Source: Dechloromonas sp. | GTDB lineage: Bacteria; Pseudomonadota; Gammaproteobacteria; Burkholderiales; Rhodocyclaceae | Assembly: GCA_028689015.1 (NCBI GenBank) | Contig: JAQTXC010000003.1 | Span: forward strand, 37,694-101,693 | Reading direction: 5' to 3' | DNA length: 64,000 nucleotides | Shown: positions 8,717 through 39,887 of the stretch, piece by piece | How the letters are laid out: every line of letters begins with the position of its first letter | How positions within the stretch are numbered: position 1 is the first letter of the stretch | Translations under genes and position numbers: made by a program | Notes under the pieces: model-generated | The model's database searches: none | What the model was told of the DNA's origin: nothing | What the model saw: only the letters and a program-made list of their open reading frames with translations

Positions 8717-8773
8717 TTTTTTCTCATTTTTAAATCTCGATATCACCGCACCGAAGTTTCACAGGAGGTAAAC

Positions 8774-10669: not shown

Positions 10670-10686
10670 TCCGGGAGGTCTGAATC

Positions 10687-11238
10687 ATGGGACAAGTGGT
10701 CCAGAGTGCCGGCAAGGCCGGCACAGCGGTCCAGTCTGCCGCGGTCGACAACGGACCGCAGCAATATCTGACCTTCACGCTGGGCGGCGAGATGTTTGCC
10801 GTCGCCATTCTCAACGTCAAGGAAATCATCGAGTTCGGCTCAGTCACCGAAATCCCGATGACGCCCGCCTTCATTCGCGGGGTCATCAACCTGCGTGGTG
10901 CCGTCGTCCCGGTCATCGATCTCTCCTGCCGCTTTGGCGGCAAGAGTACCGAAGTGGCGCGGCGCACCTGCATCGTGATCATTGAACTGGTCGAGGGTGA
11001 CCTGAAGCACGATATCGGGATCATGGTCGATGCTGTTTCCGAGGTACTGGAAATCTCGCCCGCCGAAATCGAACCCCCACCCAGCTTCGGTGCCAAGATC
11101 CGTACCGATTTCATTTCAGGCATGGGCAAGGTGAATGGCAAATTCGTCATCATTTTGTCAATCAACAAGGTGCTTTCCGTCGAGGAAATCGCCATCCTTT
11201 CCCAGATGGGCGAAACCGGCAGCACTGAAAGCGTCTGA
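10687..11238 (+). CDS. cheW: Chemotaxis coupling protein CheW
   Basis: QQYLTFTLGGEMFAVAILNVKEIIEFGSVTEIPMTPAFIRGVINLRGAVVPVIDL. Confidence 0.93.
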   Translation: MGQVVQSAGKAGTAVQSAAVDNGPQQYLTFTLGGEMFAVAILNVKEIIEFGSVTEIPMTPAFIRGVINLRGAVVPVIDLSCRFGGKSTEVARRTCIVIIELVEGDLKHDIGIMVDAVSEVLEISPAEIEPPPSFGAKIRTDFISGMGKVNGKFVIILSINKVLSVEEIAILSQMGETGSTESV

Positions 11239-11326
11239 CACCGCCGGGCAGGCTTCATCACGGCCTGCCCGTTTCTGGCCCCGGACAGAACAAGCAAGAG
11301 ACAATCATGGCGCATGAACGCCCAGC

Positions 11327-11932
11327 ATGACCGACTACGCAGCCCTGTCCACCCGCGATATCGAACGCCTCTCCCGCAGCATCAAACCAGGAGAATGGGC
11401 GGTCGAGCACGAAAGGCCAATCTCCACCCTCCTCGGCTCGTGCGTTGCTGTCTGTCTTTACGACAGCGCCCTCCCCCTGGCCGGCATGAATCACTTCATG
11501 CTCCCTCAGATGAAACGCGGGGCGCATGCGGACGTGGATGTGCTGCTGGCGGGTGACGCCTGCATGGAAGCATTGCTCAACGCCATGCTGCAACGCGGTG
11601 CCGCCAAGCACCGGATACGCGCCAAGGCATTTGGCGGCGGCGCGGTCATCGACACAACCGCCCCCGGCCACCTGCAAGTAGGCAAACGCAATGCCGACTT
11701 TGCCCATGAATGGCTGCACCGCGAGGGGATTCCCCTGACTGCTTCTGATTTTCTCGGCCCATGGTCACGCAAGATACTGCTGGTGCCGTCGAACGGTGAC
11801 GCCTATTGCAAGCGGGTCACCTCCAGTCTGATCAGCCAGGAATCGCTGCGCCGCGAGGAGTTGGCCTATGCCGAATCGCTGCTCAACAAGGCCGCAGCTC
11901 CGATGACCGCCAAGAAGATTGAATTGTTCTGA
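11327..11932 (+). CDS. cheD: Chemoreceptor glutamine deamidase CheD
   Basis: STLLGSCVAVCLYDSALPLAGMNHFMLP with catalytic-type C and H; KAFGGGAVI; ends KKIELF. Confidence 0.9.
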   Translation: MTDYAALSTRDIERLSRSIKPGEWAVEHERPISTLLGSCVAVCLYDSALPLAGMNHFMLPQMKRGAHADVDVLLAGDACMEALLNAMLQRGAAKHRIRAKAFGGGAVIDTTAPGHLQVGKRNADFAHEWLHREGIPLTASDFLGPWSRKILLVPSNGDAYCKRVTSSLISQESLRREELAYAESLLNKAAAPMTAKKIELF

Positions 11933-12741
11933 TGACCGAATCTGCCATTACCGACCAGGAATTTGCCCTGTTCCAACGTCTGATCTACAAAATTGCCGGG
12001 ATCAGTCTGTCCGATGCCAAAAAAGTCCTGCTGGTCGGGCGTCTGCAAAAACGGCTACGCCACTACCAGATGGACACCTTTACCCAGTATTACCGGATGA
12101 TTTCCAGTGGCAATGACCCGGACGAGTTACAGACCATGGTCGACCTGCTGACGACCAATGAAACCTATTTTTTCCGCGAACCACAGCACTTTGCCTTCCT
12201 GCGTGACGAGATCCTGGCCAAACGGCGGAATCCTTCGAAATTTCGCGTCTGGAGTGCGGCCAGTTCAACCGGCGAAGAGGTCTATACGCTGGCCATGCTG
12301 CTGGCCGACCACAGCGAAACAGCTTGGGAAGTGCTTGGTTCCGACATCAGCACCCAGGTCCTGGCAAAAGCCCAGCGCGGGCATTACCCGCTGAGCCGCA
12401 ATGAAGGCATCCCGCCGGACATGCTGACGCGCTATTGCCTCAAAGGCGTACGCAGTCAGGCGGGCACGTTTCTCATTTCGCCCGCATTGCGCAAGCAGGT
12501 CAGCTTCCACCATCTCAACCTGACGCTGCCGATCACCGAAGATATTGGCAAGTTCGAGATCATTTTCCTGCGCAACGTCATGATTTATTTTGACATCGAC
12601 ACCAAGCGCAAGGTGATCGGCAATCTCCTGCCTCACCTGCTGCCCGGAGGTCACCTGATCATCGGCCACTCCGAAACCTTGAATGGCATCGAGAGCGGAC
12701 TAAGCCAAATTCGCCCGACCATTTACCGCAAAACGGCATGA
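11932..12741 (+). CDS. cheR: Chemotaxis protein methyltransferase CheR
   Basis: [22 protein letters not shown]...[21 protein letters not shown]...LRNVMIYFD; start overlaps the cheD stop by 1 nt. Confidence 0.93.
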
Positions 12742-13835
12742 GCAAGCCCATCAAGGTCATGATTGTTGATGACTCGGCGCTGGTCCGCCAGGTCGTTTCG
12801 CAAGCCCTGGCACGCGAACCCGGCATCGAGGTCATCGCCACGGCGGGTGACCCGGTGTTTGCCATCGGCAAGATGAAAGCGGACTGGCCGGATGTCCTGA
12901 TCGTTGATATCGAAATGCCGCGCATGGACGGCATTTCTTTCCTGCGCAAGATCATGAGTGAACGACCGACTCCGGTCATCATCTGCTCATCGCTCGCCGA
13001 AAGTGGCGCACAAGCCACCTTCGATGCCATGGCCGCGGGTGCCGTCAGCATCATCACCAAGCCCAAGGCCGGCCTGAAGAGTTTTCTCGAAGACGCCTCG
13101 AACGACATCGTCCAGGCCGTTCGGGCGGCCGCCCGGGCCAATCTACGCGCCCTACCCCGAGGCCAGGCAAGCGGGGTTGCGGTCAACGGCCTGAACCGGC
13201 CAAAACTGACGGCCGACGCCATGTTGTCCGCAACAGCGCCCAGCGCGATGGCCCGCACAACAGATCAACTAATTGCCATCGGCACCTCAACCGGCGGCAC
13301 CCAGGCGCTGGAAGCCGTACTCACCCGCCTCCCGTCCACCTGCCTGGGCATCGTCATCGTCCAGCACATGCCGGAAAAATTCACCGCCATGTTCGCCGAG
13401 CGGCTGAACAGCCTGTGCGCCATCGAGGTCCGCGAGGCGCGAAATGGCGACCGGGTGATGCCGGGCCGGGCATTGATCGCCCCCGGTGGCCGACACATGA
13501 TGCTCAAGCGCAGCGGCGCCCAATATCATGTTGAAGTAATCGATGGCCCGCTGGTCAATCGCCACAAGCCGTCGGTCGATGTCCTGTTCCGCTCGGTGGC
13601 CAAGTTTGCGGGCGCCAACGCCCTCGGCGTCATCATGACCGGCATGGGTGACGATGGTGCGCGCGGCCTGAAGGAAATGCACGACGCTGGCGCCAAAACC
13701 ATCGCGCAGGACGAGGCGACTTGCGTGGTCTTTGGCATGCCTATGGAAGCCATCAAGCAAGGGGGTGTCGACCAGGTACTGCCGATTGGCCAGATTCCCG
13801 ATGCCATGATCGCCTACACCCGAAAAGCCGGGTAA
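12738..13835 (+). CDS. cheB: Chemotaxis response regulator protein-glutamate methylesterase CheB
   Basis: REC domain ([17 protein letters not shown]) plus methylesterase ([16 protein letters not shown]...[16 protein letters not shown]...[15 protein letters not shown]); ATGA overlap with cheR. Confidence 0.95.
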
Positions 13836-17508: not shown

Positions 17509-17668
17509 GCTCATTCCTGCAGGAAAAATAGACAAGATGCGGCGGCAATGACGCATCGCGTAGACTGCCCGCCAAACCAAAGCCGCATTTTACCCTCGTC
17601 AACTTGCTGTTATCCCGTCAACCAGCCAAACTTGCCCAGAGACCTTGAAAGCCGAGAGAAAACGCTGG

Positions 17669-20263
17669 ATGAGCGCCCCCCCTACCGAGCCGAGCATGCA
17701 CCGCCCCGTCGTCCTGGCGGTTGACGACAATCCGGCCAATCTCGCCTTGATCAGCGCCTTGCTGGAACCCCTCCCGGTCAGCATCCGGCTGGCCGAAAAT
17801 GGCCAGCAAGCCCTGACCGGTGCCACACAACTGCCGCAACCTGACCTCATCCTGCTTGACATCATGATGCCGGGCATGGATGGCCACCAAGTATTGGCCC
17901 ACTTGCGCGACAACCCCGACACTCGCCAGATCCCGGTCATTTATGTGACCGCGATGGACAGCTCCCAGAACGAGGAAGCCGGCCTGCAGGAAGGCGCGGT
18001 CGATTACATTACCAAACCGATCAAACCAGCGATTTTCCGGGCCCGCATCACGCAGCATCTGGCGCTAAAAAAAGCCCGCGATGCACTGGCCCGCCAGAAT
18101 GCCAACCTCGACACTGAAGTTAAGCGCCAAGTCGTAGAAAACACCCAACTCAGCACCCGCCTGCAACTGGCCTTGTCTGCCGCCCGCATCGGCATCTGGG
18201 AATTCCGACATGACACGCAGCAGTTGCAGTGGTCAGAAGATTTATGCACCCTCCTCGGACTCACCCAGGGCCCGGAAACCCTGGAACAGGCGGCTGAGCT
18301 ACTCGACCCGGCGGACCGCGCGCGCGTTTTGCAGGCCATCCTGTCACCCGTTGCCCCCGGACAGGATGTCACGATCGAAGAATTCCGCGCCCGCCACGCC
18401 AACGGTCGCTGGCTATGGCTGGAAGCCCGCGGCCGATCCGTCCAGTTCACTGCCGATGACCTGCCCTTGCTGACCGTGGGCACGATGAGCGACATCAGTC
18501 AGCGCAAAGCGGCCGAGCGCCGAATTGAACACCTGGCCAGCTACGACCAACTGACTGAATTGCCCAATCGCAGCCTGTTTGCCGACCGCCTGGTACAAGC
18601 CATCAACAGCACCCGCCGCCTGGGACGGCAAACGGCCCTGATCCAGCTCGATCTCGACCGTTTCCGCACCATTAATGAAACCCTCGGCCCACCGGCCGGC
18701 GACGCCGTGCTCTGCGAAGTCGCCCGCCGCCTGCGCTTGCAGATACGCGATGGCGACACCTTGGGCCGCCGCTCCGGCAACGAATTCGGCTTTGTGATGA
18801 CCAACCTGACCCAGGAGCGCGATGCGATCAGCCTCGCCCAGCGCCTGCTTGAGGCCATTGCCCAACCTTACGCCGTGGACGGTCAGACCGTTGCGCTCAG
18901 CGCCAATATTGGCATCGCCATTGCACCGCGCGATGGCGACTGCGCCGATGAACTGTTCAAGGCTTGCGACATCGCCCTGGCCAGCGCCAAGCAGGCGGGA
19001 CGCAATACTTTTCGTTTTTATGCTCCCGAGATGAATGCCGACGCGGCCCGCCGTCTGGGCCTGGAATCAGCACTGCGCGACGCCATTGCCCGCCAGGAAC
19101 TCAGCGTGGTCTACCAACCCCAGGTGAGCCTGGATAGCGGCAACATCATCGGCATGGAAGCCTTGCTACGCTGGCGCAACGCCGAGCTCGGTCAGATATC
19201 GCCCGCCGAATTCATCCCGATAGCCGAAGAATGCGGCCTGATCCTGCCGATTGGCGAATGGGTTCTGCACACCGCCTGCCAGCAAGCCCGCCGCTGGCTT
19301 GATCTGGGCTTCGCCCCCTTGCGTCTTGCGGTCAACGTCTCGGCACGGCAATTTGGCCTGCCCGATCTCGACCAGATTGTGCGGCGCACGCTGACCGACA
19401 CCGGACTGCCAGCCGCCAGCCTGGAACTGGAAATCACTGAAAGTGCCTTCATCGACAACGTCGACGAAGCCGTCGCCATGTGTCGCAAGCTCAAGACACT
19501 GGGGGTCATGCTCTCGCTAGACGACTTTGGCACGGGCTATTCGTCGCTGTCCTATTTGTCGCGCTTCCCGTTCGACAAGATCAAGATCGATCAGAGCTTT
19601 ATTCGCGACATCATCGAAAACCCGGTCAATGCGGCGATCGCCACCTCGACCATCGTCATGGGCCGCAGTCTCAACCTGGCCGTGCTCGCTGAAGGGGTGG
19701 AGACCGAGGCGCAAGCCAGCTTCCTGCGCGGCCGGCGCTGCGATGCCATCCAGGGTTACCTGTTCAGCCACCCCTTACCAGCCGCTGAGTTCGAACGCCT
19801 GCTGGCCGGCCGCCACCGCCTCCCGCTGAGCGACTTGCCAGCCGAACACGGGCAGACCCTGCTGATCGTCGATGACGAGCCCAATATTCTCAATGCGCTG
19901 ACCCGCCTGTTGCGCCGCGAGGCTTACACCATCCTCAGCGCAACCTCACCCAGCCAGGCCTTTGAACATCTGGCCCGCCAGCCGGTCCAGGTCATCCTCT
20001 CTGACCAGCGCATGCCGGACATGTCGGGCACCGAGTTTTTTGCCCGGGTACGCCAGCTTTATCCGCACACCATCCGTCTCGTGCTGACCGGCTACACCGA
20101 TCTGGAATCGGTGACTGAGGCGATCAATCGCGGCGCCATTTACAAATTTTTGACCAAGCCCTGGGACGACGACCTGCTACGCGAACAACTGCGCGAAGCT
20201 TTTCGCCTGAGCAAGGAACAACGCATCACAGCCGAATGCCAGCCTGCCACACCCCATGACTGA
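17669..20263 (+). CDS. REC-PAS-GGDEF(degenerate)-EAL-REC multidomain response regulator / predicted c-di-GMP phosphodiesterase
   Basis: N-terminal REC (VVLAVDDNPANLALI...LILLDIMMPGMDG), GGDEF-like domain with SGNEF in place of GGDEF, EAL signature EALLRW plus DDFGTGYSSLSYL and AEGVETE, C-terminal second REC (LLIVDDEPNILNALTRLL...KPWDDDLL). ORF opens at 17645. Confidence 0.9.
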   Translation: MSAPPTEPSMHRPVVLAVDDNPANLALISALLEPLPVSIRLAENGQQALTGATQLPQPDLILLDIMMPGMDGHQVLAHLRDNPDTRQIPVIYVTAMDSSQNEEAGLQEGAVDYITKPIKPAIFRARITQHLALKKARDALARQNANLDTEVKRQVVENTQLSTRLQLALSAARIGIWEFRHDTQQLQWSEDLCTLLGLTQGPETLEQAAELLDPADRARVLQAILSPVAPGQDVTIEEFRARHANGRWLWLEARGRSVQFTADDLPLLTVGTMSDISQRKAAERRIEHLASYDQLTELPNRSLFADRLVQAINSTRRLGRQTALIQLDLDRFRTINETLGPPAGDAVLCEVARRLRLQIRDGDTLGRRSGNEFGFVMTNLTQERDAISLAQRLLEAIAQPYAVDGQTVALSANIGIAIAPRDGDCADELFKACDIALASAKQAGRNTFRFYAPEMNADAARRLGLESALRDAIARQELSVVYQPQVSLDSGNIIGMEALLRWRNAELGQISPAEFIPIAEECGLILPIGEWVLHTACQQARRWLDLGFAPLRLAVNVSARQFGLPDLDQIVRRTLTDTGLPAASLELEITESAFIDNVDEAVAMCRKLKTLGVMLSLDDFGTGYSSLSYLSRFPFDKIKIDQSFIRDIIENPVNAAIATSTIVMGRSLNLAVLAEGVETEAQASFLRGRRCDAIQGYLFSHPLPAAEFERLLAGRHRLPLSDLPAEHGQTLLIVDDEPNILNALTRLLRREAYTILSATSPSQAFEHLARQPVQVILSDQRMPDMSGTEFFARVRQLYPHTIRLVLTGYTDLESVTEAINRGAIYKFLTKPWDDDLLREQLREAFRLSKEQRITAECQPATPHD

Positions 20264-22484
20264 ATTACCCCTGCTGCTCCTTGTCACGCTCTTGATCGTC
20301 AGCGCCTTGTGGCTACGTAGCGAGTTCAGCCAGCGCTTAGGCGAACAGCGGGCCAATGCCTTGTTCAACAACACCCTGATCGGCATGGCACGCATCAGCC
20401 CTCATGGCCGATGGATCGCCGTCAACCCCACCCTGTGCCGTATTTTGGACACCCCTGCCGGGCAATTGATTGGCCGACACTGGTTAGATATCCTCGATCC
20501 GGATGAACGCGCTATTGCAGAACAGCGCTTCGCTGAAGCCTGTGCCCTGCCCGGGAGCGAGTTTACCCACACGCACCGCCTGAAACAGGCCGGCCCGATT
20601 GCCCGCTATGTCTCGCTGGCCTTCCAGCCGGTGTGGGACAAAAAGAGCGAAATTTCCTATTTCACCCTCTTGATCGAGGACATCACGGCCCGCCACGAAG
20701 CCGAGCGCAAGCTATCCCGCCAGGTGGCCCGCTCGGAAGCCATGGTCGAACTGCCACAGCGGGCTGAAACCCTGTCCGAACCAACCTTCATGCAATACGC
20801 AACGGGCGAGGCAGAGCGCCTCACCGGCAGCCAGATTGCTTTCATGCATTTCGTCAACGACGATGAAGAGAGCATTGAACTGGTTGCCTGGTCGAACAAT
20901 ACCCTGGCCCATTACTGCCATGCCACGTACCAGAGCCATTACCCGGTCAGTGAGGCCGGCATCTGGGCCGACGCCATTCGCCAACGCGATGTGGTCATCG
21001 TCAATGATTACGCCCAGGCCAGCAACCGGCGCGGCCTGCCGGAAGGCCACTCACCACTGCACCGCCTGCTCTGCGTTCCCGTTATCGAAAACGGCAAGGT
21101 CTGCATGGTGACCGGCGTCGGCAACAAGAGCACGCCTTATGGCGAAACCGATGTCGACACCGTGCGCCTGATCGGCAACGAAACCTGGCGCATTGCCCGT
21201 CGCGCCCGGGTGGACAAAGCACTGCAACTGGCCATGCAAGTGGTTAACGCCAGCCCAGTCGTCTGCTTTCGCTGGCAGGCCAGCAACGGCTGGCCCGTCG
21301 TATTCGTATCGGACAATATCCGGCAGTGGGGCTACACCCCGGAACAGTTGATCACTGGCCAGCCGCTTTTTGCCGATATCGTGCACCCTGAGGATCTGCC
21401 CCGGGTGGCTGATGAGGTCATGCGCCACACGGCCAGCGGCTGTAGCAATTACGAACAGGAGTACCGGCTGATCACGGCGGAAAAACAGCTGATCTGGGTG
21501 GTCGACCGCACACAAGTCATCCGCGACACCATGGGCCTGCCGCTGTTTTACGACGGCGTGCTGACCGATATTACTGACCGCAAGACACAGCAACTCCTGC
21601 TCGCCGACAACCTGAAACAGCAGCAGGCATTGAACAAGCGTCTGGAAGAAGCCAACAACCAGTTGCTGCAATCCGAAAAAATGGCCTCCATCGGCCAGTT
21701 GGCGGCCGGTGTCGCCCACGAACTGAACAACCCGATCGGCTTCGTTCACTCCAACCTGGGCACCCTCGACGGCTATCTGCACGACCTGATGGCCATCATC
21801 GACGGCTATGAGCAGGCCACGACCGAGCACTGTACCGACCCCGCCGTCCTTGGCAAGATCTCACGCCTGCGCGAGGAACGCGATTTCGCTTTCCTCAAGG
21901 CCGATATTTTCAGCCTGGTCGCTGAGTCGAAAGATGGCCTGAACCGTGTCAAGAAAATCGTCCAGGATCTAAAAAGCTTCTCGCGCGTTGGCGAACAGGA
22001 ATGGCAGGAAGCCGACTTGCACCAGGGGCTGGAATCGACACTCAACATTGTCTGGAACGAACTCAAGTACAAGTGCCAGATCATCAAGGATTACGGCGAT
22101 TTACCGCCGGTTTATTGCCTGATTTCGCAATTGAACCAGGTATTCATGAACCTGCTGGTCAATGCCAGCCAAGCCATCGACAAACAGGGGACCGTCACCT
22201 TGCGCACCTGCTGCCTGGACAACGACAAGGTCTGCATCGAAATCAGCGACACCGGCTGCGGCATCCCGGCCGAACACCTGAGCCGCATTTTCGACCCCTT
22301 CTTCACCACCAAACCGGTCGGCCAGGGCACCGGCCTCGGCCTTTCGCTGTCCTACAGCATCGTGCAACGCCATCAGGGACAACTGACGGTCCGCAGCACG
22401 CCAGGCCAGGGCACAAGCTTCCGCGTAATCCTGCCCATTCACCCGTCGACCGCAAGCACACCCGCCCCGGAGGCTGCCCGATGA
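20256..22484 (+). CDS. PAS-GAF-PAS sensor histidine kinase
   Basis: 742 aa; N-terminal TM segment; [32 protein letters not shown]-box; [39 protein letters not shown] HATPase. Confidence 0.9.
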
Positions 22485-23797
22485 GCGACCCCTCGCAAGC
22501 ACCCACCCTGCTCTTCGTCGATGACGAACCTGGCATTCTGTCGGCCCTGCGCCGCCTGTTCCGCCCCCATGGCTACCGTATTTTCATTGCGGAGGGCGGC
22601 GCCGCCGGCCTGGCTGTACTTGAACAAGAAAACGTCGATCTCGTCATTTCCGACATGCGCATGCCGGAAATGGATGGGGCCGCCTTCCTCAAGCAGGTCC
22701 GCGAACGCTGGCCCGGCATCATGCGCATCCTGCTGACGGGCTATGCCGACATCACGTCGACGGTTTCAGCGATCAATGAAGGACAGATCTATCGCTACGT
22801 CGCCAAACCCTGGGACGACAACGAAATCCTTGGTGTCGTCCGCGAAGCCATCGAGCGCCAGCGCCTGGAGGCCGAAAACCAGCGGCTCAATACGCTGATC
22901 CAGGCCCAGAACGAAGCGCTTAAGCAACTCAATGCCAGCCTGGAACACAAGGTTGCCGAACGTACCGCCGAACTACGCCAGGCACTCAGTTTTGTCGAGC
23001 AGGCGCATGGCGAACTGAAAAAATCCTTCCTGACCAGCGTCCATGTTTTCGCCGGGCTCATCGAACTGCGCAGCGGCCCGGCCGGCAAGCAACTGAGCGG
23101 CCATGGCCGCCGGGTGGCCGAACAGGCCCGCGCCCTGGCCCTGCGCATGGGAGTCGCCGACAACGAGGTCCAGAACATCATGCTGGCCGGCCTGCTGCAC
23201 GACATCGGCAAGCTGGGCCTGCCAGACGACCTGCTGAGCAAGCCTTTCAACACCTTGACCGTCGAACAACGGGCTGCCGTGGTCAAACACCCAATCATCG
23301 GCCAGAACATCCTGATCGGCATCGCCAAGTTCAAGGAAGCCGCGCTGATCGTTCGCCACCACCACGAGTGTTTCGATGGTAGCGGCTATCCCGATCACCT
23401 GGCCGGCATCGCCATCCCGCAGGGCAGCCGCATTCTCAGCGTCGCCAACGATTACGACGCCCTACAGATTGGCACCCTGGCCCAGCGCCCGCTGAAAGCG
23501 AGCGAAGCCGCCACCTTTCTGGTCGAAAATCGCGGCAAACGTTACGACCCGACGGTGGTCGACCATTTCATCCGCCAACTCGCCGACAGCCAGAAATCGG
23601 CGATCAGCGAAATGCCCTTACGTTCGATCCACCTCAAGCCCGGCATGGTGCTGAGCCGGGAGCTGACGCACAAGGATGGCTATCTGCTACTCGCCAAAGG
23701 TAGCGTGCTCAGCGGCGAAATCATCGGCCAGTTGGTCAAAATGGAAGAAGCCGAACAGCACCCGGTCACGCTTTATATCCGCCAGGAGGCCGCATGA
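22481..23797 (+). CDS. REC-HD-GYP response regulator (c-di-GMP phosphodiesterase)
   Basis: Start ATG at 22481 (ATGA overlap with upstream kinase); TLLFVDDEPGILSALRRLF...KPWDDNEIL; LLHDIGKLGLPDDLL and HHHECFDGSGYPDHLAG. The track ORF (22001..23797) extends upstream spuriously. Confidence 0.92.
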   Translation: MSDPSQAPTLLFVDDEPGILSALRRLFRPHGYRIFIAEGGAAGLAVLEQENVDLVISDMRMPEMDGAAFLKQVRERWPGIMRILLTGYADITSTVSAINEGQIYRYVAKPWDDNEILGVVREAIERQRLEAENQRLNTLIQAQNEALKQLNASLEHKVAERTAELRQALSFVEQAHGELKKSFLTSVHVFAGLIELRSGPAGKQLSGHGRRVAEQARALALRMGVADNEVQNIMLAGLLHDIGKLGLPDDLLSKPFNTLTVEQRAAVVKHPIIGQNILIGIAKFKEAALIVRHHHECFDGSGYPDHLAGIAIPQGSRILSVANDYDALQIGTLAQRPLKASEAATFLVENRGKRYDPTVVDHFIRQLADSQKSAISEMPLRSIHLKPGMVLSRELTHKDGYLLLAKGSVLSGEIIGQLVKMEEAEQHPVTLYIRQEAA

Positions 23798-24360
23798 GCC
23801 GCATCCTCATCCTTGATGACGAAGCCCCCATCGTCAACGCCTTGCAACGCCTGTTACGCCTGGCGCCCTGCCATTACGGCGGGCAGACCTTCCCGCTGGA
23901 AGTGAGGGCCTGCACTTCGCCCCTGGCCGCCCTGGCCCTGGCCGAGCACGAAGAATTCGACCTGTTCATGAGCGACTACCGCATGCCAGAAATGGACGGC
24001 ATCGAATTTCTGAAGGCGAGCAAGCGCCTGCAGCCGGATGCCGCCCGCCTCATCCTGTCTGGCTACGCCGACCTCAACGCCTTGGTGCGCGCGGTCAACG
24101 AGGTTGGGATCGAACGTTTCATTGGCAAGCCATGGAACGACTACGACCTGATGTCGGCCATCGCCCAGGCGCTGGCCCATCGCAACCTGCTACTCGAAAA
24201 TCGCCAGTTGGCCAATCTGGTCCGCCTTGAAATGGGTGACATGACCGCCGAGCAACTGGAGGCGGAACGTCTTGAGCGCCTCGAACCGGGGATCACCACA
24301 GTCAATTGGGGCCCCGATGGTTCGGTCCTCCTCGACCCCGAATTACTGAAAAACGACTGA
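23794..24360 (+). CDS. Stand-alone response regulator (HupR/RpfG-type REC)
   Basis: 188 aa; ILILDDEAPIVNALQRLL...LFMSDYRMPEMDGIEFLKAS...LSGYADLNALVRAVNEVGIERFIGKPWNDYDLM; ATGA overlap. Confidence 0.88.
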   Translation: MSRILILDDEAPIVNALQRLLRLAPCHYGGQTFPLEVRACTSPLAALALAEHEEFDLFMSDYRMPEMDGIEFLKASKRLQPDAARLILSGYADLNALVRAVNEVGIERFIGKPWNDYDLMSAIAQALAHRNLLLENRQLANLVRLEMGDMTAEQLEAERLERLEPGITTVNWGPDGSVLLDPELLKND

Positions 24361-24368
24361 GCCCCATC

Positions 24369-25013
24369 GTGCCCGACCTCAGCGGCCAGACCCTGACCTT
24401 CAAGCTGGTGTATTACGGCCCGGCACAGAGCGGCAAGACCACGAACTTGCTACGCCTGCATGACCAACTGGCCCCGGCGATGAAGGGCGAACTCATGACC
24501 ATGGAAACCAAGGACGACCGGACCTTGTTCTTCGACCTGCTGCCGCTCGGTTTTCGCGCCCCTTCCGGCCTGCTGCTCAAGTTTCGTTTGTTCACCGTAC
24601 CCGGCCAGGTGGCGCACGATGGCACCCGCAAGGCTGTGTTGTCGCGCGCCGACGGCGTCGTTTTCGTCGCTGATGCGGCGCGCAACCAGGAAAGCAACAA
24701 CGCCGAGTCTTTCCGCAGCCTGGCAGAAAACTGCGCCCGCGTCGGCCTCGACTTCGAGCACCTGCCGCTGGTCGTCCAGTTCAACAAATGCGACCTGCCG
24801 GACGCCGTGCCTGAAGCGGAAATCCGTGAGCGCTGGGCTAGCGCGCCCTGGCCGCTGATTTTTTCAGTGGCCATCCACGGCCAGGGCATCCGTCCGACTT
24901 TCGAAAATCTGTTGCGCGCGGTCTACCGACGTTTTGCCACAGAATTCAGCCTGGCCGAAACCCACCGACTGGACGAAAACCAATTTGTCGCACACACCCT
25001 GGGACAGCCATGA
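24369..25013 (+). CDS. MglA-like small Ras-family GTPase
   Basis: GTG start at 24369; VYYGPAQSGKTTNLLRLHDQL (P-loop), FRLFTVPGQVAHDGTRKAVLSRADGVVFVADA, VVQFNKCDLP (NKxD). Track ORF begins upstream in-frame at 24306. Confidence 0.85.
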   Translation: MPDLSGQTLTFKLVYYGPAQSGKTTNLLRLHDQLAPAMKGELMTMETKDDRTLFFDLLPLGFRAPSGLLLKFRLFTVPGQVAHDGTRKAVLSRADGVVFVADAARNQESNNAESFRSLAENCARVGLDFEHLPLVVQFNKCDLPDAVPEAEIRERWASAPWPLIFSVAIHGQGIRPTFENLLRAVYRRFATEFSLAETHRLDENQFVAHTLGQP

Positions 25014-26215
25014 ACGCCGGCTTTGACCACGAATGGACGCTGGCCGAATTGCTCGATGACGGCCTGGTCGACCGTAGCGCCCGGGCCCTGGCCCCTTTGC
25101 TGGGCGGCGACGTCGCGATCAGCCATGCCGACGGCCGAATCGCCTGGGGCCTGCTCAACGCCCACAGCCGTGGCGAACCGCTGATCGTCGAACTGGAAGC
25201 GATCGGTTATCTCCATAGCCACAGCGCCAGCCCAACCGCCCTGCGGGCCGGCCGCGACCTGCTGCTCACCTTGCTGCGCGCCCAGATGCGTTTCAAGATG
25301 GCCTCGACGCTGCATCTCGAAGCGGTCGCCGAAGATTTCGAATCACTCAAGCGCGAGCACGCCCGTCTACTCGAATCGGAAAGCCGCTATCGCAAGCTGT
25401 CCGAAGAACTGGAGGGCCGCGTTCGCCAACAAGTGGCGCAATTGCAAGAGCGCCAGCAAATGCTCTACGAGGCGGAAAAACTGGCCTCGGTCGGCCAACT
25501 GGCGGCGGGCATGGCACACGAAATCAACAACCCGCTCGGTTTCGTGCGCAGCAACCTGGGCAGCTTCGAAAAATACCTGCGCGCCTTTACTCAACTCAAA
25601 GCCCAACTCGATCCACCCGGCCAGGCCGTCTGGCAAACCCTCGACCTCGACTTCATGCTCGACGACGGTCAGGCACTGCTTGAGGAAAGTGCCCGTGGCC
25701 TGGAAAGAATTGCCCGTATCGTGGCCGATTTAAAGGCGTTTTCCAACGTCGACCGCGCCAGCGAGGAGGTGATCGATGTCAACACCTGTATCCGCGAAGC
25801 GGCCCAGATGCTGACCACCCAGCAACCGGCCGGCATCAGTCTGCAGTTTGACCTGTTACCCCTGCCTGGCCTGTTCGGCCTGCCCGGCCACCTGAACCAG
25901 ATGTTCTTCAACCTGCTGCGCAATGCCCAGCAGGCGATCATCGATGCTGGGCGTCCCGGTGAAATCCAGATCAGCTCGGAGGCCACCGAGGCCGGCATTT
26001 TCATTCGCATTCAAGACAACGGGATTGGCATGACCGATGAACAAATCAGCCATGCGTTCGAGCCCTTCTACACCACCCGGGCGGTGGGTGCCGGGGTCGG
26101 CCTGGGCCTGGCCACGGCCCGCAACATCGCACTCGCTCACAGCGGCTCGATCCAGTTGCGCAGCCAGTCCGACCTTGGCAGCACCGCCACCGTCTTCTTT
26201 CCAACCCCGCCATGA
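25010..26215 (+). CDS. Sensor histidine kinase with uncharacterised N-terminal domain
   Basis: 401 aa; EKLASVGQLAAGMAHEINNPLGFVRSNLGSF H-box; DNGIGMTDEQISHAFEPFYTTRAVGAGVGLGLATARNIA; ATGA overlap with the MglA-like gene. Confidence 0.88.
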   Translation: MNAGFDHEWTLAELLDDGLVDRSARALAPLLGGDVAISHADGRIAWGLLNAHSRGEPLIVELEAIGYLHSHSASPTALRAGRDLLLTLLRAQMRFKMASTLHLEAVAEDFESLKREHARLLESESRYRKLSEELEGRVRQQVAQLQERQQMLYEAEKLASVGQLAAGMAHEINNPLGFVRSNLGSFEKYLRAFTQLKAQLDPPGQAVWQTLDLDFMLDDGQALLEESARGLERIARIVADLKAFSNVDRASEEVIDVNTCIREAAQMLTTQQPAGISLQFDLLPLPGLFGLPGHLNQMFFNLLRNAQQAIIDAGRPGEIQISSEATEAGIFIRIQDNGIGMTDEQISHAFEPFYTTRAVGAGVGLGLATARNIALAHSGSIQLRSQSDLGSTATVFFPTPP

Positions 26216-28452
26216 CTGACTACAGCGCCCTGTTCACTGGCAAGTCCAACACCGCGCAAGCCCCGGCGGCCCATCTGACGCCGCCGCGTTATCGTCTGCT
26301 GCTGGTTGATGACGAGCCCGGCATCGTCAAGGCCCTGAGCCGCGTTTTCCGCCAGGAAAACTACGAGGTAGTGACCGCCGGCAACGGCGAGGAAGGCTTG
26401 CGCCTTCTGGCCGCGCACACGGTCCACTTGGTCATTAGCGACTTTTTGATGCCTGGGATGGACGGCGCCCGCTTCCTGCGCGAAGTCAAAAGCCGCTCCC
26501 CCGACACCCTGCGCATCATGCTGACCGGGCACGCCAACACCGATGCGGTGATGGGCGCGATCAACGAGGGTGCGGTCTACAAATTCATTCTCAAGCCCTG
26601 GAACGATGACGACCTGCGGGTGACGGTTGCCCTAGCCTTGGAACAGTACGATCTGATCACCCGCAACCGGGCATTGAAAGCAGAGAACGACAAGAAAACC
26701 AAGGAAATTTCCGCCCTGGCCAAGCTGGCCGCCACGCACCGCAGCCGTCTCGGCATCATGCTACACAAGCACAATCTGCTCACCGCCGCCCAGGTGCAGG
26801 AACTGAGCATGCAGCAGGAAAAGCGCAAGGAACCCTTGATCAGCATCCTGCTCGACAAGGACTGGGTGCCCGAACGCCGCATCCGCGATCTGCTCAAGCG
26901 TGAAATGCTGATCGACGACGTGCAACTGCCGGAATTTGCTATTGATCCGGCCATGGCCGACCTCATTCCACACAGCTTCTGCGCCCGCCAACTGGTTGTC
27001 CCGCTCAAGCTCGATGGCCGGCGTCTGATGCTGGCCATGGCCGACCCGCTGGATGAAGGCCTGCTCGACGAAATCCGCTTCACCGCCGGACTGGAAATCA
27101 ACGCCGTGATGGCCGACGCGGCCGCCATCCGGCAGAAAATCGACCAACTGTACGGCACGGGCAATGTCGATTTCCGTGAACTGGAAACCTTCGCGTCCTC
27201 GCCCGACCCCTACGAGGGGATCGAGATCGTCATCGAGGATGATAACGATACCAAGCTCGAAGACCTGCTGCGTGACACCGAGGCGCCGCCGGCCATTCGC
27301 CTGGCCAACGCCATCATCATCGAAGCGATCCGCCTGGGCGCTTCCGACATTCACATCCAGCCGCGCACCAAAAGCGTCATCGTCCGTTACCGCATCGATG
27401 GCGTCCTCTCGGACAAGATCGGCATCCCGCACCAGTTGCATCAATCGCTGGTCTCGCGCTTGAAGATCATGTCGGAACTTGATATTTCCGAACGGCGCCG
27501 GCCACAGGATGGCCGCATCACCGTCAAAACACCCATGCGCATGGTCGATCTGCGCATCTCGACGCTGCCGACGATCAATGGCGAAAAAATCGTGATGCGC
27601 CTGCTCGACCGCAACTCTGCGGTCCATAGTCTGGACAAGCTGGGTTTCGCCGCCGATGACCTGCTGCGTGTCGCCAACATGGTGGCCAAGCCGCAGGGTA
27701 TCATCCTGGCCACCGGCCCGACCGGCAGCGGCAAGACCACCACCCTCTATTCACTGCTGCAGCACGACGCTACGCCCGACAAAAACTACGTCACCATTGA
27801 AGACCCGGTCGAGTACTACCTCGACATGGCGGGCCAGGTGCTGGTCCGCGAGAAAATCGGCCTGACCTTCCCGTCCGTGCTGCGCGCCCTGCTGCGCCAG
27901 GACCCGGACGTCATCCTGCTCGGCGAGATTCGTGATTTCGAAACCGCTGAAGTGGCCTTCCACGCCGCCCTCACCGGCCACCTCGTCTATTCAACCCTGC
28001 ACACCAACTCGGCGGTCGCCACCATTGCCCGCTTGTTCGACCTCGGCCTCAAACCCTACGTCGTCGCCACCGCCCTGGAAGGCATCATCGCCCAGCGCCT
28101 GGTCCGCCGCATTTGCCCGGCCTGTCGTGAAGAAATCGCACCCAATCGCGAACTGCTGGCCCGCCTCGGCGCGGAGTTCACGGCGATCAATCAGGCTTGG
28201 CGCGGGCGCGGCTGTCATGAATGCCATGGCAGTGGCTACAAAGGACGGCAAGGGATCTATGAAGTGCTGTCCCTGAACGATAATTTACGCGACCGCATCG
28301 GCAGCGGCGCCAGTGTCCTGGAAATTCGTCGCACCCTGCGTGAGCAGGGTGTTCATGGTATCGCTCGCGATGCTGCGCTACGCGTCATTGATGGCGCCAC
28401 CACACTGGATGAGATCCTCCGTGTGCTGGGCCCCCAAGATGGAAAGGAATAA
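26212..28452 (+). CDS. REC-MshEN/T2SSE_N-PilB/GspE-type ATPase fusion
   Basis: N-terminal REC (LLLVDDEPGIVKALSRVF...KPWNDDDL); T2SSE_N/MshEN-like segment; ATPase Walker A GPTGSGKTTTLYSLL, LLGEIRDFETAEVAFHAALTGHLVYSTLHTN, tetracysteine CPAC...CHEC. Confidence 0.92.
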   Translation: MTDYSALFTGKSNTAQAPAAHLTPPRYRLLLVDDEPGIVKALSRVFRQENYEVVTAGNGEEGLRLLAAHTVHLVISDFLMPGMDGARFLREVKSRSPDTLRIMLTGHANTDAVMGAINEGAVYKFILKPWNDDDLRVTVALALEQYDLITRNRALKAENDKKTKEISALAKLAATHRSRLGIMLHKHNLLTAAQVQELSMQQEKRKEPLISILLDKDWVPERRIRDLLKREMLIDDVQLPEFAIDPAMADLIPHSFCARQLVVPLKLDGRRLMLAMADPLDEGLLDEIRFTAGLEINAVMADAAAIRQKIDQLYGTGNVDFRELETFASSPDPYEGIEIVIEDDNDTKLEDLLRDTEAPPAIRLANAIIIEAIRLGASDIHIQPRTKSVIVRYRIDGVLSDKIGIPHQLHQSLVSRLKIMSELDISERRRPQDGRITVKTPMRMVDLRISTLPTINGEKIVMRLLDRNSAVHSLDKLGFAADDLLRVANMVAKPQGIILATGPTGSGKTTTLYSLLQHDATPDKNYVTIEDPVEYYLDMAGQVLVREKIGLTFPSVLRALLRQDPDVILLGEIRDFETAEVAFHAALTGHLVYSTLHTNSAVATIARLFDLGLKPYVVATALEGIIAQRLVRRICPACREEIAPNRELLARLGAEFTAINQAWRGRGCHECHGSGYKGRQGIYEVLSLNDNLRDRIGSGASVLEIRRTLREQGVHGIARDAALRVIDGATTLDEILRVLGPQDGKE

Positions 28453-28456
28453 AAAC

Positions 28457-29893
28457 ATGCAAGCCTTTGTCTGGGATAAGCGTTTCGAAACCGGCATCGA
28501 CGTTGTCGACCGCCAACATCGGCAATTGGTTGATGCGACCAATGAACTGGGCGACGTCCTCGTCCTCGGTGACGTGTCTGATGAACAGTTGCAACCTATT
28601 TTTCATCGCCTGGCCGACTATGCGCGTCGTCACTTCGCTGACGAAGAACAACTGATGCACACCCGGCAGGTGGCGGCACAGCACACTCAGGAACATATTG
28701 CCCACCACCATCAGTTCATCGAGCAGGTGCTGACGCTGTGGCGCTCGCGCAGCACGATGAAAAATCCGGCCGAAACATTGCATGGCTTTCTCACCGCCTG
28801 GCTGACAGTGCATATTCTGGGCGAGGATCAGGCCATGGCCCGGCAAATTGCCCGCATTGAAGGCGGCCAGTCGGCACCAGAGGCTTACGCAGCAGACCAG
28901 GCGGCCGGCGACCCGATCAACGGTATTCTGCTGGAGGCGCTAGGGCGACTTTACGGCCTGCTGAGCGAGCAAAACTATAATCTGGCACAAATCAACAATT
29001 CGCTGGAGCAGCGTGTCAGCGAACGAACGCAGGACCTGGCTTCGGCCAATACCCAGTTAGTACACGAACGGGCTGAACTGACCCGTCTGCTACACAAGGT
29101 CGAGGAGGCTCAACAGCAATTGCTGCAATCGGAAAAAATGGCCGCCATCGGCCAACTGGCGGCCGGCGTGGCGCACGAAATCAACAATCCGGTCGGCTTC
29201 GTCAATTCCAATCTCGGCACCCTGAAAACCTATATCGATCGCCTGATGTCGCTGGTCGACGCCTACGAAAAGAATGACCCAACTCTGATCAAACAATGCC
29301 GCCAGGCGGCCGATATCGATTTTCTGCGTGAAGATCTGCCGTCTCTGGTCGACGAATCCCGAGAGGGCCTGTCACGAGTCACCAAGATCGTCCAGGACTT
29401 GAAGGATTTTTCGCGAGTCGACCAGGCCGAGTTGCAAGCCGCCGACCTCAATGCCGCGCTCGAAAGCACACTCAACGTGGTCTGGAACGAACTCAAATAC
29501 AAAGCCGACATTGTCCGCCAACTAAGCGACCTGCCCGACATCGTCTGTGTTCCCGCTCAAATCAATCAGGTTTTCATGAACCTGCTGCTCAATGCCGCGC
29601 AGGCCATCCCGCAACACGGCACGATCACCTTACGCTCCGGCCTGGACAATACACACGCCTGGTTTGAAATCGAGGACACCGGCAGCGGCATGAGTGAGGC
29701 GGTGCAAAAACGCATCTTCGAACCTTTCTACACCACCAAGCCCGTCGGCAAGGGCACCGGTCTCGGGCTGTCCATTTCCTACGACATCATCGTCAAGAAA
29801 CACCATGGCCGCATGGACGTGCGCAGCACCGTGGGGAAAGGCAGCTGTTTCCGCATTTGCTTGCCACGCCAGCCATCCGTCGAGCTCACCTGA
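28457..29893 (+). CDS. Bacteriohemerythrin-histidine kinase fusion
   Basis: N-terminal hemerythrin motifs (DVVDRQHRQLVDATNEL, YARRHFADEEQLMH, HTQEHIAHHHQFIEQ, WLTVHILGEDQAMA) followed by [31 protein letters not shown] and an HATPase domain. Start reset from 28313 to ATG 28457. Confidence 0.9.
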   Translation: MQAFVWDKRFETGIDVVDRQHRQLVDATNELGDVLVLGDVSDEQLQPIFHRLADYARRHFADEEQLMHTRQVAAQHTQEHIAHHHQFIEQVLTLWRSRSTMKNPAETLHGFLTAWLTVHILGEDQAMARQIARIEGGQSAPEAYAADQAAGDPINGILLEALGRLYGLLSEQNYNLAQINNSLEQRVSERTQDLASANTQLVHERAELTRLLHKVEEAQQQLLQSEKMAAIGQLAAGVAHEINNPVGFVNSNLGTLKTYIDRLMSLVDAYEKNDPTLIKQCRQAADIDFLREDLPSLVDESREGLSRVTKIVQDLKDFSRVDQAELQAADLNAALESTLNVVWNELKYKADIVRQLSDLPDIVCVPAQINQVFMNLLLNAAQAIPQHGTITLRSGLDNTHAWFEIEDTGSGMSEAVQKRIFEPFYTTKPVGKGTGLGLSISYDIIVKKHHGRMDVRSTVGKGSCFRICLPRQPSVELT

Positions 29894-30894
29894 TGGCGCA
29901 GCGGACGCCCAGCCAACTGGTCCAGCAACTCGACCAGACGGTCATTGGCCAGGACAGTGCCAAACGCACGCTGGCCGTGGCCTTGCACACCCATCGTCTG
30001 CGCCTGGCCCAGCTCGCGGTCAACCCGCTGTCGATCGACAAAAGCAATGTCCTGCTGATCGGCCCGACCGGCACCGGCAAGACCTTGCTATGCGAAACCC
30101 TGGCCCGCCTCAGCGACCTGCCCTTTGTCACCGCCGACGCCACGGCCCTGGCTCAAAGCCAGTTTGTCGGCAACGAGGTCGAAGCCCTGCTGCAACGTCT
30201 GGTCGACCGCGCTGCGGGCCAGATCGCGCAAGCCGAACAGGGCATCGTCTTCATCGATGAAATCGACAAACTGAAACAAGCCAGCGGCAATCCGCTGTCC
30301 AGCCAGGGCGAACGGGTCCAGCATGCCCTGCTCAAGATCATGGAAAGCGCACTGGTCCGCCTGCCCGACGGACGCAGCATCGACACCAGCCAGATCCTGT
30401 TCATTTGTGGCGGCGCCTTTGTCGGCCTCGATGGCATCATGGAGCGTCGGCACAGCTTCGGTTTCATCGCCACCGACCAGCGCGACGACAGCCGCATTCT
30501 GGCGCGACTCAATGCCCGGGTGAAACCAACCGATTTGCTGGAATTTGGCCTGATTCCCGAGTTTGCCGGCCGCCTGCCGGTCGTTGCCCGACTACACGAC
30601 CTGACGGTCGATCACCTGATGCGGATTCTGGTTGAGCCGCGGCAGGCCTTGTACCGGCAGTTCCAGGCCCTGCTGGCGGCCAGCGGTGTCGAACTACGGA
30701 TTGCTCCGGGTGTTTTTCGGCAAATGGCTGAACTGGCGGTCGAATACAAGGCAGGGGCACGCAGCCTGCGCGGCATTTTCCAGGAAATGATGACCGACGT
30801 GCTGTACACCTTGCCTGACCAAACGGCGGTGCGTCGGGTCAGCATTCGCTCGCTGTTCGAGGCGCCGGTCTTTGAAACGACCATTCCCGCTTAG
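29893..30894 (+). CDS. ClpX-like AAA+ ATPase lacking the N-terminal zinc-binding domain
   Basis: 333 aa from ATG 29893 (TGATG overlap); LIGPTGTGKTLLCETLARL, GIVFIDEIDKLK, ILFICGGAFVGLDGIMERR, FGLIPEFAGRLPVVARL, GARSLRGIFQEMMTDVLYTLP. Confidence 0.88.
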   Translation: MAQRTPSQLVQQLDQTVIGQDSAKRTLAVALHTHRLRLAQLAVNPLSIDKSNVLLIGPTGTGKTLLCETLARLSDLPFVTADATALAQSQFVGNEVEALLQRLVDRAAGQIAQAEQGIVFIDEIDKLKQASGNPLSSQGERVQHALLKIMESALVRLPDGRSIDTSQILFICGGAFVGLDGIMERRHSFGFIATDQRDDSRILARLNARVKPTDLLEFGLIPEFAGRLPVVARLHDLTVDHLMRILVEPRQALYRQFQALLAASGVELRIAPGVFRQMAELAVEYKAGARSLRGIFQEMMTDVLYTLPDQTAVRRVSIRSLFEAPVFETTIPA

Positions 30895-31967
30895 AACAAT
30901 TCGGTATCGCCGTAGCTGGGTGCCGGGAAAACCCCTCGCTCGACCAGCTCGCTGAAATCATAGACCCGGTTACGCCCATCCTGCTTCGCCTGGTACAAGC
31001 TACGATCAGCCCGACTGAGCACTTCAACTGGCAACAAATCGGGATCCACCTCGCAATAACCGATGCTCACGGTCAACCGCTCGATCCGCGGAAAAATGTG
31101 TGCTTCTATGGCCAGCCGAACCCGCTCAAAGACATTGCGGGCCAGCGCCTCACTCTCGGCCGAGACGATAGCGACAAACTCCTCGCCACCATAGCGATAG
31201 ATCAGATCACTGGAGCGGAAGGTGATACCCATCAAGCGCGACACCAGCAGCAGGATTTCGTCGCCGACCATATGACCAAAGGTATCGTTGACCCGTTTGA
31301 AATGATCGACGTCGATCATCGACAACCAATAACGCCCCGACGGCTGGGCACGACGCCCACCTTCCCGCTCGGAAAAACGGTCTGGTCGCGTCATGGCCGA
31401 CCAGATGCGCTCGAAATTGCTTTCCAGCGCCTGACGATTCAACAAGCCGGTCAACCGGTCGCGCTGACTGATATCCAGCAGTGCGTAGTAATTGGAAAAA
31501 ACTTCCAGGACGCCGCGAATCATCGCGTCCTCGCTAGGCGAAGCCTCGCGATCACGTTCAAAGACGAAGAAACCAGCCACTTCGTCGCCGCCAAAGAGCG
31601 GGTAGGCGACCAGCATGCCGCCCTCGACCGAACGTGTGCAAGGCTTACCGAGCAAACGGACATTTTCAGTGAGCTGAATGACCTGACGGGGGACGTCGCC
31701 CAGATTGACCACCTCTTCAACACGCTCCAGCATACGCGCCACGCCATCCGACGCCTGCACTTCAGAGCGGTGATAATGCATGGCCCGAGCCAGTAACTGG
31801 GTATCGTCAACCCGATAGAGCGAGGTGTCGAGCACGCCCAACAAGGGCCCCAGTGTGCGCAGCAGGCTCTGCTCTAGCAACTCAGTATCGCGAATCGACG
31901 TCATGGCACCCAGCTTGCCAAGCAAACCGGGGGCCCTGACCTGGGACGATGGCGTCAACATCCGCAT
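30891..31967 (-). CDS. GGDEF domain diguanylate cyclase with N-terminal GAF-like region
   Basis: 358 aa; DRLTGLLNRQALESNFERI...MIDVDHFKRVNDTFGHMVGDEILLLVSRLM...IYRYGGEEFVAIV (intact GGEEF). Confidence 0.9.
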   Translation of the reverse strand: MRMLTPSSQVRAPGLLGKLGAMTSIRDTELLEQSLLRTLGPLLGVLDTSLYRVDDTQLLARAMHYHRSEVQASDGVARMLERVEEVVNLGDVPRQVIQLTENVRLLGKPCTRSVEGGMLVAYPLFGGDEVAGFFVFERDREASPSEDAMIRGVLEVFSNYYALLDISQRDRLTGLLNRQALESNFERIWSAMTRPDRFSEREGGRRAQPSGRYWLSMIDVDHFKRVNDTFGHMVGDEILLLVSRLMGITFRSSDLIYRYGGEEFVAIVSAESEALARNVFERVRLAIEAHIFPRIERLTVSIGYCEVDPDLLPVEVLSRADRSLYQAKQDGRNRVYDFSELVERGVFPAPSYGDTELF

Positions 31968-35868: not shown

Positions 35869-38800
35869 CTAGTCGCGAACAATTTCCCGCCAACTGACCC
35901 GCCGCGAACCGAAAGGTGGCGTCGTTTGCTGGCCGCTACTGGTCGTCGTCAAACTACCATCTGAGCCCGTAACCAGAATCTTGATGGTGCCGCTCGGCAG
36001 TTTGATCCGCCGGATACCGACCACCAGACTATTGCCCAGGGCGACGATGCTGCCTTGTTTGATTTTTGGATAATCATCGGCAACGGTACACGTGGACACG
36101 GGCAACTGGTAAAGCTTGCTACGCCCACTGGCCAAGCAGATACCACTTTCCGGGATGTTGGAAGCAAACGTCAGGATATTGCCTTCCAGAGCCGGATCGA
36201 CCAGGGAAATCCGTTCCGCCCCCCCGGCCGTCGGAATATCTGGCAAATCGAGATACCAGCCCCGTGTGCTGCCAGAATCGGACGTCCCGGCAACCGTGCC
36301 AGACGAACTCGCCAGTTGCTGCAGGCTGGTCTTGGGGCTACTCACCCCACCAAGATTCTCGTAATCATCGACCAGCCCGTAAAAAGTTTGCTGTGTCTTG
36401 TCGGTCATGTCAGACGCTTCAAGAAACTTGCCGCTGCCGATATAAATAGACGTCTTGCCATTACATACGGTCAATTCCGGCTCGGTTGTAAATGCCTGCC
36501 CACTCGCAGTCATGATTTTCAGGACCGTACCGGTATTAGGGTCAATCCGCCAGAGATTTCCCTCCAGGTCACCGCCATAAACCCGGGTCACCGTATGATC
36601 CTCACCGCCTTTGATCACTTGCGGCGAGAATCTGGAAAATCCGGTCGCGGTCGTGCTGATGCTGACATTACGAATCAAGGTGCCGGTGTACGCATCCAGC
36701 ATGAGCAGGTTGCTGCCGCCATTGGCCGGGTTGATCCCGGAGGAGAGGATGACCGACCAACTCAGACCGCCCACCGCATTTTTGACCTTGCCGATCCAGG
36801 GTCGCCCCAAGGCATAACCAACGTAGCCCCCAAGGCTGCTATCGGCGCTGGTCAATTCCCAGAGCAATGTCGGCGAGGCGGGCGTGGTGATATCCAGAGC
36901 GAAATAGCCGGACAACGGGCTGGCATTTTCCGGATCATTGCCTGGCGCGACGCCAGCACCCAGCGCGCCAACCAGGATCGTTTTCCAGACAGCCGCCGTC
37001 GTGTCACAGGCACTGATACAGACGTCCTCGACGGTCACGGCGCCATCGACAAAGAAGCGGTGATTCTTGACATAGGTCGTATCCGCCAGCCGCCACATTT
37101 CGCTCAAAACGGGGGTCGGCACATAGGCCCACAATTCAGCGCCGGTCGTCGCATTGAAAGCATGCAACATACCGTCATTTCCACCCGCATAAACCACCGG
37201 CGTACGGGCACAAGCCGTACCCGTCAACAAACTGGCCGAAAAGGTGTTGTAGCCAAGATCTGTGAATTTTCCACTCGCCTTGCAAACATATTTTGGTGCA
37301 GAGCCGACGAAATCGCCCAGAACCGACTCTCGCTCGCGAAACAGGCGATATTCGTTGCTGTCCCGCGTATCGAACCCAGTCTGCCCACGCAGAAAATTAA
37401 TGATTTTTTCAGCATTGGCCTGTGACTTGTAGTCATCCGACCACGTGGTGTACTGATTGAGTTTCGTAGCGTCGAACTTGCTCGTATGAGCAGATAGATT
37501 GCTCGAGGTGAAATTGGTCAGCGTGCCGCCGCTGTTGAAATAAATTTTCCGGCTATCGCTGGTCGCCCCCACCATGCTGGTCATGCTGCCCGTGCAGGCG
37601 GTGAGATTACGTGCCGGGTCGGCCGGAATGCTTTCAGCACACCAATAAGCCTGGGTACTGACATTACCGGTCAGCACGTCAATCGTCCGCGCCTCGAGAT
37701 TGCCAGTCCACTTACCGGTGGTGTAGGTCGCCACGTACATATAATTATCGCCATTGACCGGCTCGGCAGTACTGGTCGCGGCAGCTGAACCCGCACCATA
37801 TTGGGCGGAAATACTGGCCAATGCATCTTTCAAACTGGAGACCAGAACCGCTGGATCCTGGGCAGAAAAATACTGCCCACGACCGTTGACCGCAGCATGC
37901 CAAAGGTCGTCAATCGCTGCGGGCGAATCATTGCTTGGCGCCGGCCAGTTGGCCGAACCATTCTTGATATCGAAGTAATCACCACTGGTTGCCGTCTTGT
38001 AATCGCGCCGATAACGCAAATTGCCATCGATACCCAAACCAAGGGTGAAGGTGCTCATGTGCTGACTACTGTTTTTATCCTCGGCCGAAACCGGCACATT
38101 GTTGTCGCAGACATCGGCCCCGGTCAGCGGCGAAGTACAGTTACTCAAAGTACCGTCACGCAAATCGGTGTTGTAGTAATACATGGCCACATCCGATAGC
38201 GATGGCACGGTACCGGCTGAGGACCCTTGGTAATAGGGACGCGGCGTGCTGCCGCCATCCTGATCACCAAGGATATTGCCATCCACGTCGGTGACCCCAC
38301 TTCCGCTCGAGTTGCCGTTCCAGTAACCATCGGTCGTCAGCAAAGCGAAATTTTGTTGGCAGGAATACTGAACGGGATCGTCCACGCTTTCCCTGCCGGC
38401 AAAAACACGCCCGGCAAATGACAAAGCACCGCGCAAAGGTGTTCCGCCACTCGGACTAGCCGCCATCAGTTTGCTATACCAGGTTGTCCGCTGCCCCGAA
38501 TCGAAAGGCCGAACCGAAACGTAGGTCCCACTCGTGGATAACTTGTTGATCTGGGTATAACCGACCCGGAAACTACTATCAATATCCTTGAAGGCCTGAG
38601 AAGCGGACGACTTCATCATCAGAATTCGCGTCCGATAATAAGCATACCAATTCGCGAAATTGGTCATTTCCTCTGCGTAAGAACAACCATCGCTATAGGT
38701 CGTGCAATCCGTTCTCGCCGTGGGCTTGCCCCCAGCGACCTGATATTTGGCGGTGCTGGAAACAATATTCACCCGACTGAACAGCGACTGCCCTTCCATC

Positions 38801-39864: not shown

Positions 39865-39887
39865 GATGTCTCTCCTGTACCGCATGA

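Follow-up and report, generated by a model that had tools for sequence, protein, structure and literature searches.

Nine open reading frames follow one another on the forward strand between positions 17669 and 30894 of the window, the stretch of 64,000 nucleotides from a Dechloromonas sp. analysed here, and ORF analysis shows that they form a coupled operon, whose genes we number g1 to g9. The overlap of g1 and g2 is 8 nucleotides long (20256-20263); overlaps of 4 nucleotides are found at g2/g3, g3/g4, g5/g6 and g6/g7; spacers of 8 and 4 nucleotides separate g4 from g5 and g7 from g8, respectively; and g8 and g9 have a single nucleotide in common, at 29893. The preliminary description of this DNA had proposed a nine-gene coupled operon with these junctions, all of which are borne out, and its domain order for the nine products agrees with Pfam and NCBIfam. 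Its starting point has to be moved: the operon stands, but ATG 17669 is preferable to TTG 17645 as the start of g1. A scan for promoters and terminators gave matches no more numerous than in shuffled sequence.

The product of the accessory gene g1 (17669..20263; Pfam, motifs) has the organization REC-PAS-GGDEF-EAL-REC: the GGDEF motif is degenerate and reads SGNEF, the EAL motifs are intact (EALLRW, DDFGTG), and the protein is, by these motifs, likely a c-di-GMP phosphodiesterase. The accessory sensor g2 (20256..22484; Pfam, motifs) is a PAS-GAF-PAS histidine kinase. Next come two near-core genes. The first, g3 (22481..23797; NCBIfam, neighbourhoods, motifs), encodes a REC-HD-GYP phosphodiesterase of the NosR family, which it matches with 560.8 bits against 400, and its HD-GYP motifs, HDIGK and HHHECFDGSGYP, are intact. 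The second, g4 (23794..24360; Pfam, neighbourhoods), encodes a lone receiver followed, outside the receiver domain, by a conserved C-terminal peptide, PGITxVxWGPDGSVxLD, a candidate docking motif.

The core consists of g5 (24369..25013; PDB matches, alignment), an MglA-family GTPase gene starting with GTG at 24369; g6 (25010..26215; neighbourhoods, AlphaFold2, Pfam), a cytoplasmic histidine kinase whose N-terminal domain is unrecognised; and g7 (26212..28452; Pfam, alignment, clade, motifs), a REC-MshEN-PilB/GspE-type ATPase. The recurrent sensor g8 (28457..29893; Pfam, motifs, neighbourhoods) is a hemerythrin-histidine kinase, and g9 (29893..30894; NCBIfam, neighbourhoods) is a short ClpX-like AAA+ ATPase (AAA_2). 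Each of the three kinases, g2, g6 and g8, carries the HE[IL]NNP motif and the ATP-binding boxes; among them, g2 alone has a clearly hydrophobic N-terminus.

Around the operon, a predicted diguanylate cyclase gene (GGDEF, 30891-31967) converges on g9, the two stops overlapping by 4 nucleotides; a chemotaxis cluster encoding CheA, MCP, CheW, CheD, CheR and CheB lies upstream on the forward strand (6506-13835), and an ORF of 370 residues with no Pfam match lies at 447-1559.

Neighbourhoods in other genomes were surveyed with g5 as the only query: it has 149 relatives in the genome collection, of which the best 80 were kept. In 78 of these 80 loci the genes g5, g6 and g7 are contiguous and in the same order, and the junctions often overlap: g5/g6 in 58 of 80, g6/g7 in 42 of 77, and g3/g4 in 27 of 56. 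The arrangement is thus not a product of chance. The preliminary description proposed a dedicated module, to be checked by its co-occurrence outside the genome of origin, and the conservation of the trio supports a signalling module that contains an MglA-like GTPase and a pilus-type ATPase fused to a receiver. As a rule, g3 and g4 lie ahead of the trio. With coverage above 60% required, g4 is present in at least 64 loci, g3 in 62, g1 in 36, g8 in 30 and g2 in 22, counts that are lower bounds because contigs are cut. The hemerythrin kinase, claimed from the start, is recurrent as well: it appears as one ORF in 25 of the 80 loci, nearly always directly after g7.

Records bearing the trio are titled Dechloromonas, Zoogloea, Aromatoleum, Sulfuricella, Methylobacillus, Rubrivivax and Chromatiaceae, among others. 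At several Zoogloea loci the trio is found without the other genes of the operon, and it therefore looks like the minimal unit. In the farthest relatives, whose g5 is 54-57% identical, the series from g3 through g6 to the beginning of g7 is still in order. The module is widespread but sparse: it occurs in 7 of the 276 genomes examined from the class, in 12 of 150 from the order and in 3 of 299 from the phylum. Gammaproteobacterial loci carry an extra receiver protein, an HDOD gene and more kinases upstream; at one of them (L043), a PilJ-type domain forms the N-terminus of the kinase encoded ahead of the HD-GYP gene, which is only suggestive. When flanking ORFs of the carrier loci are clustered, the recurrent extras are the HDOD gene, at 27 loci, and an ORF for a small protein (about 100 residues) that has no Pfam match and lies between the receiver and HDOD genes (L043:3136-3438 and ten other loci); neither pilin, PilC nor other pilus genes recur beside the module. 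The window itself encodes an HDOD protein at 3558-4400, 13 kb upstream of the operon, and at one locus (L077) the relatives of g1-g4 and g8 run in the direction opposite to the trio, as in a split or doubled module.

Could all this be a loose cluster of two-component genes with no functional unity? The accessory genes g1, g2, g8 and HDOD do vary in presence and order, but even where g6 is only about 36% identical, the genes of the trio stay together with overlapping codons, and we hold this reading to be very improbable. The module is real and conserved, a new combination of parts of known kinds; a search of the open-access literature brought up no paper that describes this arrangement. Of the demonstrated facts, the strongest are the trio and the coupling of its genes, and the function discussed below is a model.

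One gene does not belong. The preliminary description had counted a ClpX-like unfoldase as part of the module, and g9, though coupled here, is missing from all 80 loci. Its family, short ClpX-like proteins with 55-66% identity, has members in 15 further genomes of the order sample, which mostly lack the module; in the one genome of the same genus, the relative of g9 is on a different contig from the module, and the neighbours of the family are not conserved. Since it is absent from the loci and its family lives elsewhere without the module, g9 is rejected as a member and considered a passenger. Nor is it ClpX: it falls below both cut-offs (341.6 against 359 bits, and 314.5 against 370.75 bits), its match begins at position 60-68 of the ClpX profile, the N-terminal zinc domain being absent, and the true ClpX of the genome is a separate gene, 48% identical to g9. 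Such short ClpX-like AAA+ proteins lacking the zinc domain (g9, L095, L096) are scattered through the order.

The best PDB matches of g5 are the MglA proteins of Thermus and Myxococcus. Its residues R51, T76 and Q80 align without gaps with R53, T78 and Q82 of MglA, the arginine finger and the TVPGQ motif, and they are invariant in 29 g5 sequences. With a P-loop GPxxxGKTTNL, a TVPGQ motif with its Thr, the arginine finger and NKxD, g5 is, on its sequence features, a true MglA-family protein. Its usual partner is missing: no roadblock protein (MglB) was found in the genome of origin, where a hidden MglB outside the window was looked for as well, and 16 of 17 other carriers have none either, so that the roadblock is absent in 17 of the 18 carriers and present in one. 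The MglB roadblock GAP is coupled to 390 of 449 MglA proteins, and the remaining 59 are uncoupled, according to the accessible part of a survey (PMC4316618). Because that part lists uncoupled members, the missing MglB places g5 among the uncoupled MglA type, and its membership in the family stands.

About 130 residues precede the kinase core of g6. This N-terminal domain has no Pfam match, and beyond the kinase domains the 29 members show scattered weak matches only. AlphaFold2 predicts with high confidence a small domain of helix and four strands, followed by a long helix, and the matches listed by a Foldseek search with the g6 model are all kinase cores. The kinase NosK likewise has no recognised sensor domain and is under the control of a partner protein (PMC12570481); by analogy, it is reasonable to suppose that the GTPase controls g6.

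We now turn to the motor. The ATPase g7 has the Walker A and B motifs, the Asp and His boxes and the zinc motif of the broad PilB/GspE type, and its Walker A, GEIRD, His box and CxxC pair are intact and invariant in 28 sequences, as are the receiver residues D33, D34, D77, T105 and K128. It forms a clade of its own with respect to the PilB, MshE-type and orphan ATPases of the same genome, at identities of 35-38%. It scores 552.8 bits with the PilB profile (TIGR02538), under the equivalog cut-off of 675.65, and it is also under the GspE equivalog cut-off. The AlphaFold model of g7 is poor (pLDDT 68). Two further orphan ATPases of the PilB/GspE type, of 597 and 782 amino acids, are encoded in the genome (G000, contigs C10 and C5; L083, L085), the longer one with a long N-terminal part resembling a GAF sensor.

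The MshEN domain of g7 had been claimed to bind c-di-GMP. The receptor signature consists of two 24-residue motifs of the form RLGxx... (PMC5013675), and none of the 28 g7 proteins matches even the relaxed published motif, whereas the protein MshE_C1 of the same genome matches it twice. By this motif the domain is degenerate and is rejected as a c-di-GMP sensor, with the caution, given in the same paper, that imperfect motifs can still bind c-di-GMP. Since MshEN is degenerate in 28 of 28 sequences and the MshE of the genome is intact, receiver phosphorylation may have replaced c-di-GMP as the input of g7.

On which machine would this motor act? The reverse strand of the window encodes PilY1 and PilW (35869-41608) and a complete PilMNOPQ operon (52828-57875); elsewhere in the genome, names read from the sequences give pilBCD, pilT/U and two MSHA-like operons, which include ATPases of their own. 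PilM, the marker of the type IVa pilus (T4aP), is strong in all 18 sampled carriers; in the background it is present in 61 of 84 genomes sampled from the class and in 119 of 150 from the order (the latter tallied by hand from a listing at E < 1e-40), or 73-79%. A result of 18 out of 18 has a chance of about 1% if carriers are independent, which they are not, and because T4aP is common in the background we count it as mild support for the type IV pilus machine of the preliminary description. The pilus link of the module is plausible. The secretion system T2SS is disfavoured as the partner machine: its GspL is present in 11 of the 18 carriers and absent from the genome of origin and six others, and in a genome without GspL g7 does not qualify as the GspE of a T2SS.

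Three other readings of g7 bear on this question. It may drive MSHA-type pili or another type IV filament, the module switching that machine rather than T4aP: the genome has the two MSHA-like operons, and g7 is as near to MshE_C1 (38.1%) as to PilB (38.2%). Both operons already possess their own MshE, however, and T2SS, a related machine, is dispensable, so that we find this reading unlikely. A distinctly doubtful one makes g7 a regulator: controlled by its receiver, it would act on the pilus machine as a decoy or brake, in competition with PilB. The module indeed lacks genes for pilC, pilin and prepilin peptidase, and the genome already has a PilB; invariant catalytic boxes and zinc motif in 28 sequences would be needless for a mere decoy. 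Finally, the genes g5-g7 might control a process other than pili, DNA uptake or secretion for example, with PilM reflecting its background frequency. This we judge improbable: ATPases of the PilB/GspE type serve type IV filament machines, 7 of the 18 carriers lack T2SS, and DNA uptake through type IV pili would be a special case of a pilus motor.

The model that we prefer, and to which we give about an even chance, is that of a sensor-driven module in which phosphorylation of the receiver licenses an extra T4aP motor and the GTPase puts this motor in place or activates it; its phosphotransfer pairings, GTPase effector, action on T4aP and direction of response are what we infer from the parts. 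The kinases g8 (hemerythrin, for oxygen or redox state), g2 (PAS/GAF) and g6 would phosphorylate several receivers: those of the phosphodiesterases g1 and g3, the lone g4 and the one within g7. Phosphorylation of g7, rather than binding of c-di-GMP, would license an additional assembly motor on the T4aP machine of the cell. The MglA-type g5, whose constant partner is the kinase g6, would position or switch on this motor, g6 and the receiver g4 substituting for the missing MglB-type regulators. Meanwhile, g1 and g3 would lower c-di-GMP and disfavour the MshE-type pili also encoded in the genome, and, taken together, oxygen or redox state would tip the balance between adhesion and the activity of the pili. 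A bolder version, which we offer tentatively and believe somewhat less probable than its contrary, is that of an undescribed signalling module whose MglA-type GTPase, lacking MglB, is controlled by a dedicated histidine kinase, with the g6 N-terminus or the g4 tail as GTPase regulator, and directly gates a pilus motor that is switched by phosphorylation and has exchanged c-di-GMP for receiver control.

Several known systems share parts with this module. In the available portions of PMC7519303 and PMC7668184, the MglA-SgmX-PilB system of Myxococcus xanthus likewise has an MglA-family GTPase with arginine finger and TVPGQ, tied to receivers and to T4aP formation; unlike it, the module is beta- and gammaproteobacterial, has no MglB, and encodes GTPase, kinase and receiver-fused motor in one coupled operon. 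In the Streptomyces conservon CvnA-D, too, the gene of an MglA-family GTPase adjoins a dedicated histidine kinase, as the accessible part of PMC4316618 relates, but Pfam finds neither the roadblock CvnB nor CvnC among the nine genes, and the outputs here are receivers and a motor ATPase. That same part of the survey describes no pilus-motor operon. With NosP-NosK-NosR (PMC12570481) the module shares a kinase without recognised sensor, a HEINN motif and a NosR-family REC-HD-GYP partner; its HD-GYP motif is intact where that of NosR is degenerate, a GTPase and a motor are added, and Pfam gives no match to the FIST domain of NosP in the nine genes. The MshEN-T2SSE architecture of g7 is that of MshE-type ATPases, and MshEN-receiver combinations exist (PMC5013675), but both c-di-GMP motifs are degenerate in the g7 family. 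Like PilB, the T4aP extension ATPase, which provides its best PDB matches, g7 has all catalytic boxes and the zinc motif; unlike PilB, it begins with a receiver and has no pilC or pilD neighbours.

Control of polarity and pili by MglA-type GTPases is known mainly in deltaproteobacteria, in which the genes of the GTPase, the receivers and the motor lie apart. In the present case, parts of the same types form one coupled unit that is widely shared among beta- and gammaproteobacteria; some of its carriers, among Dechloromonas, Zoogloea and Aromatoleum, are cultured. The module may offer a compact system for studying how a bacterial Ras-like switch communicates with a pilus motor, how an MglA would function when MglB is absent, and whether a motor ATPase can be licensed by receiver phosphorylation instead of c-di-GMP.
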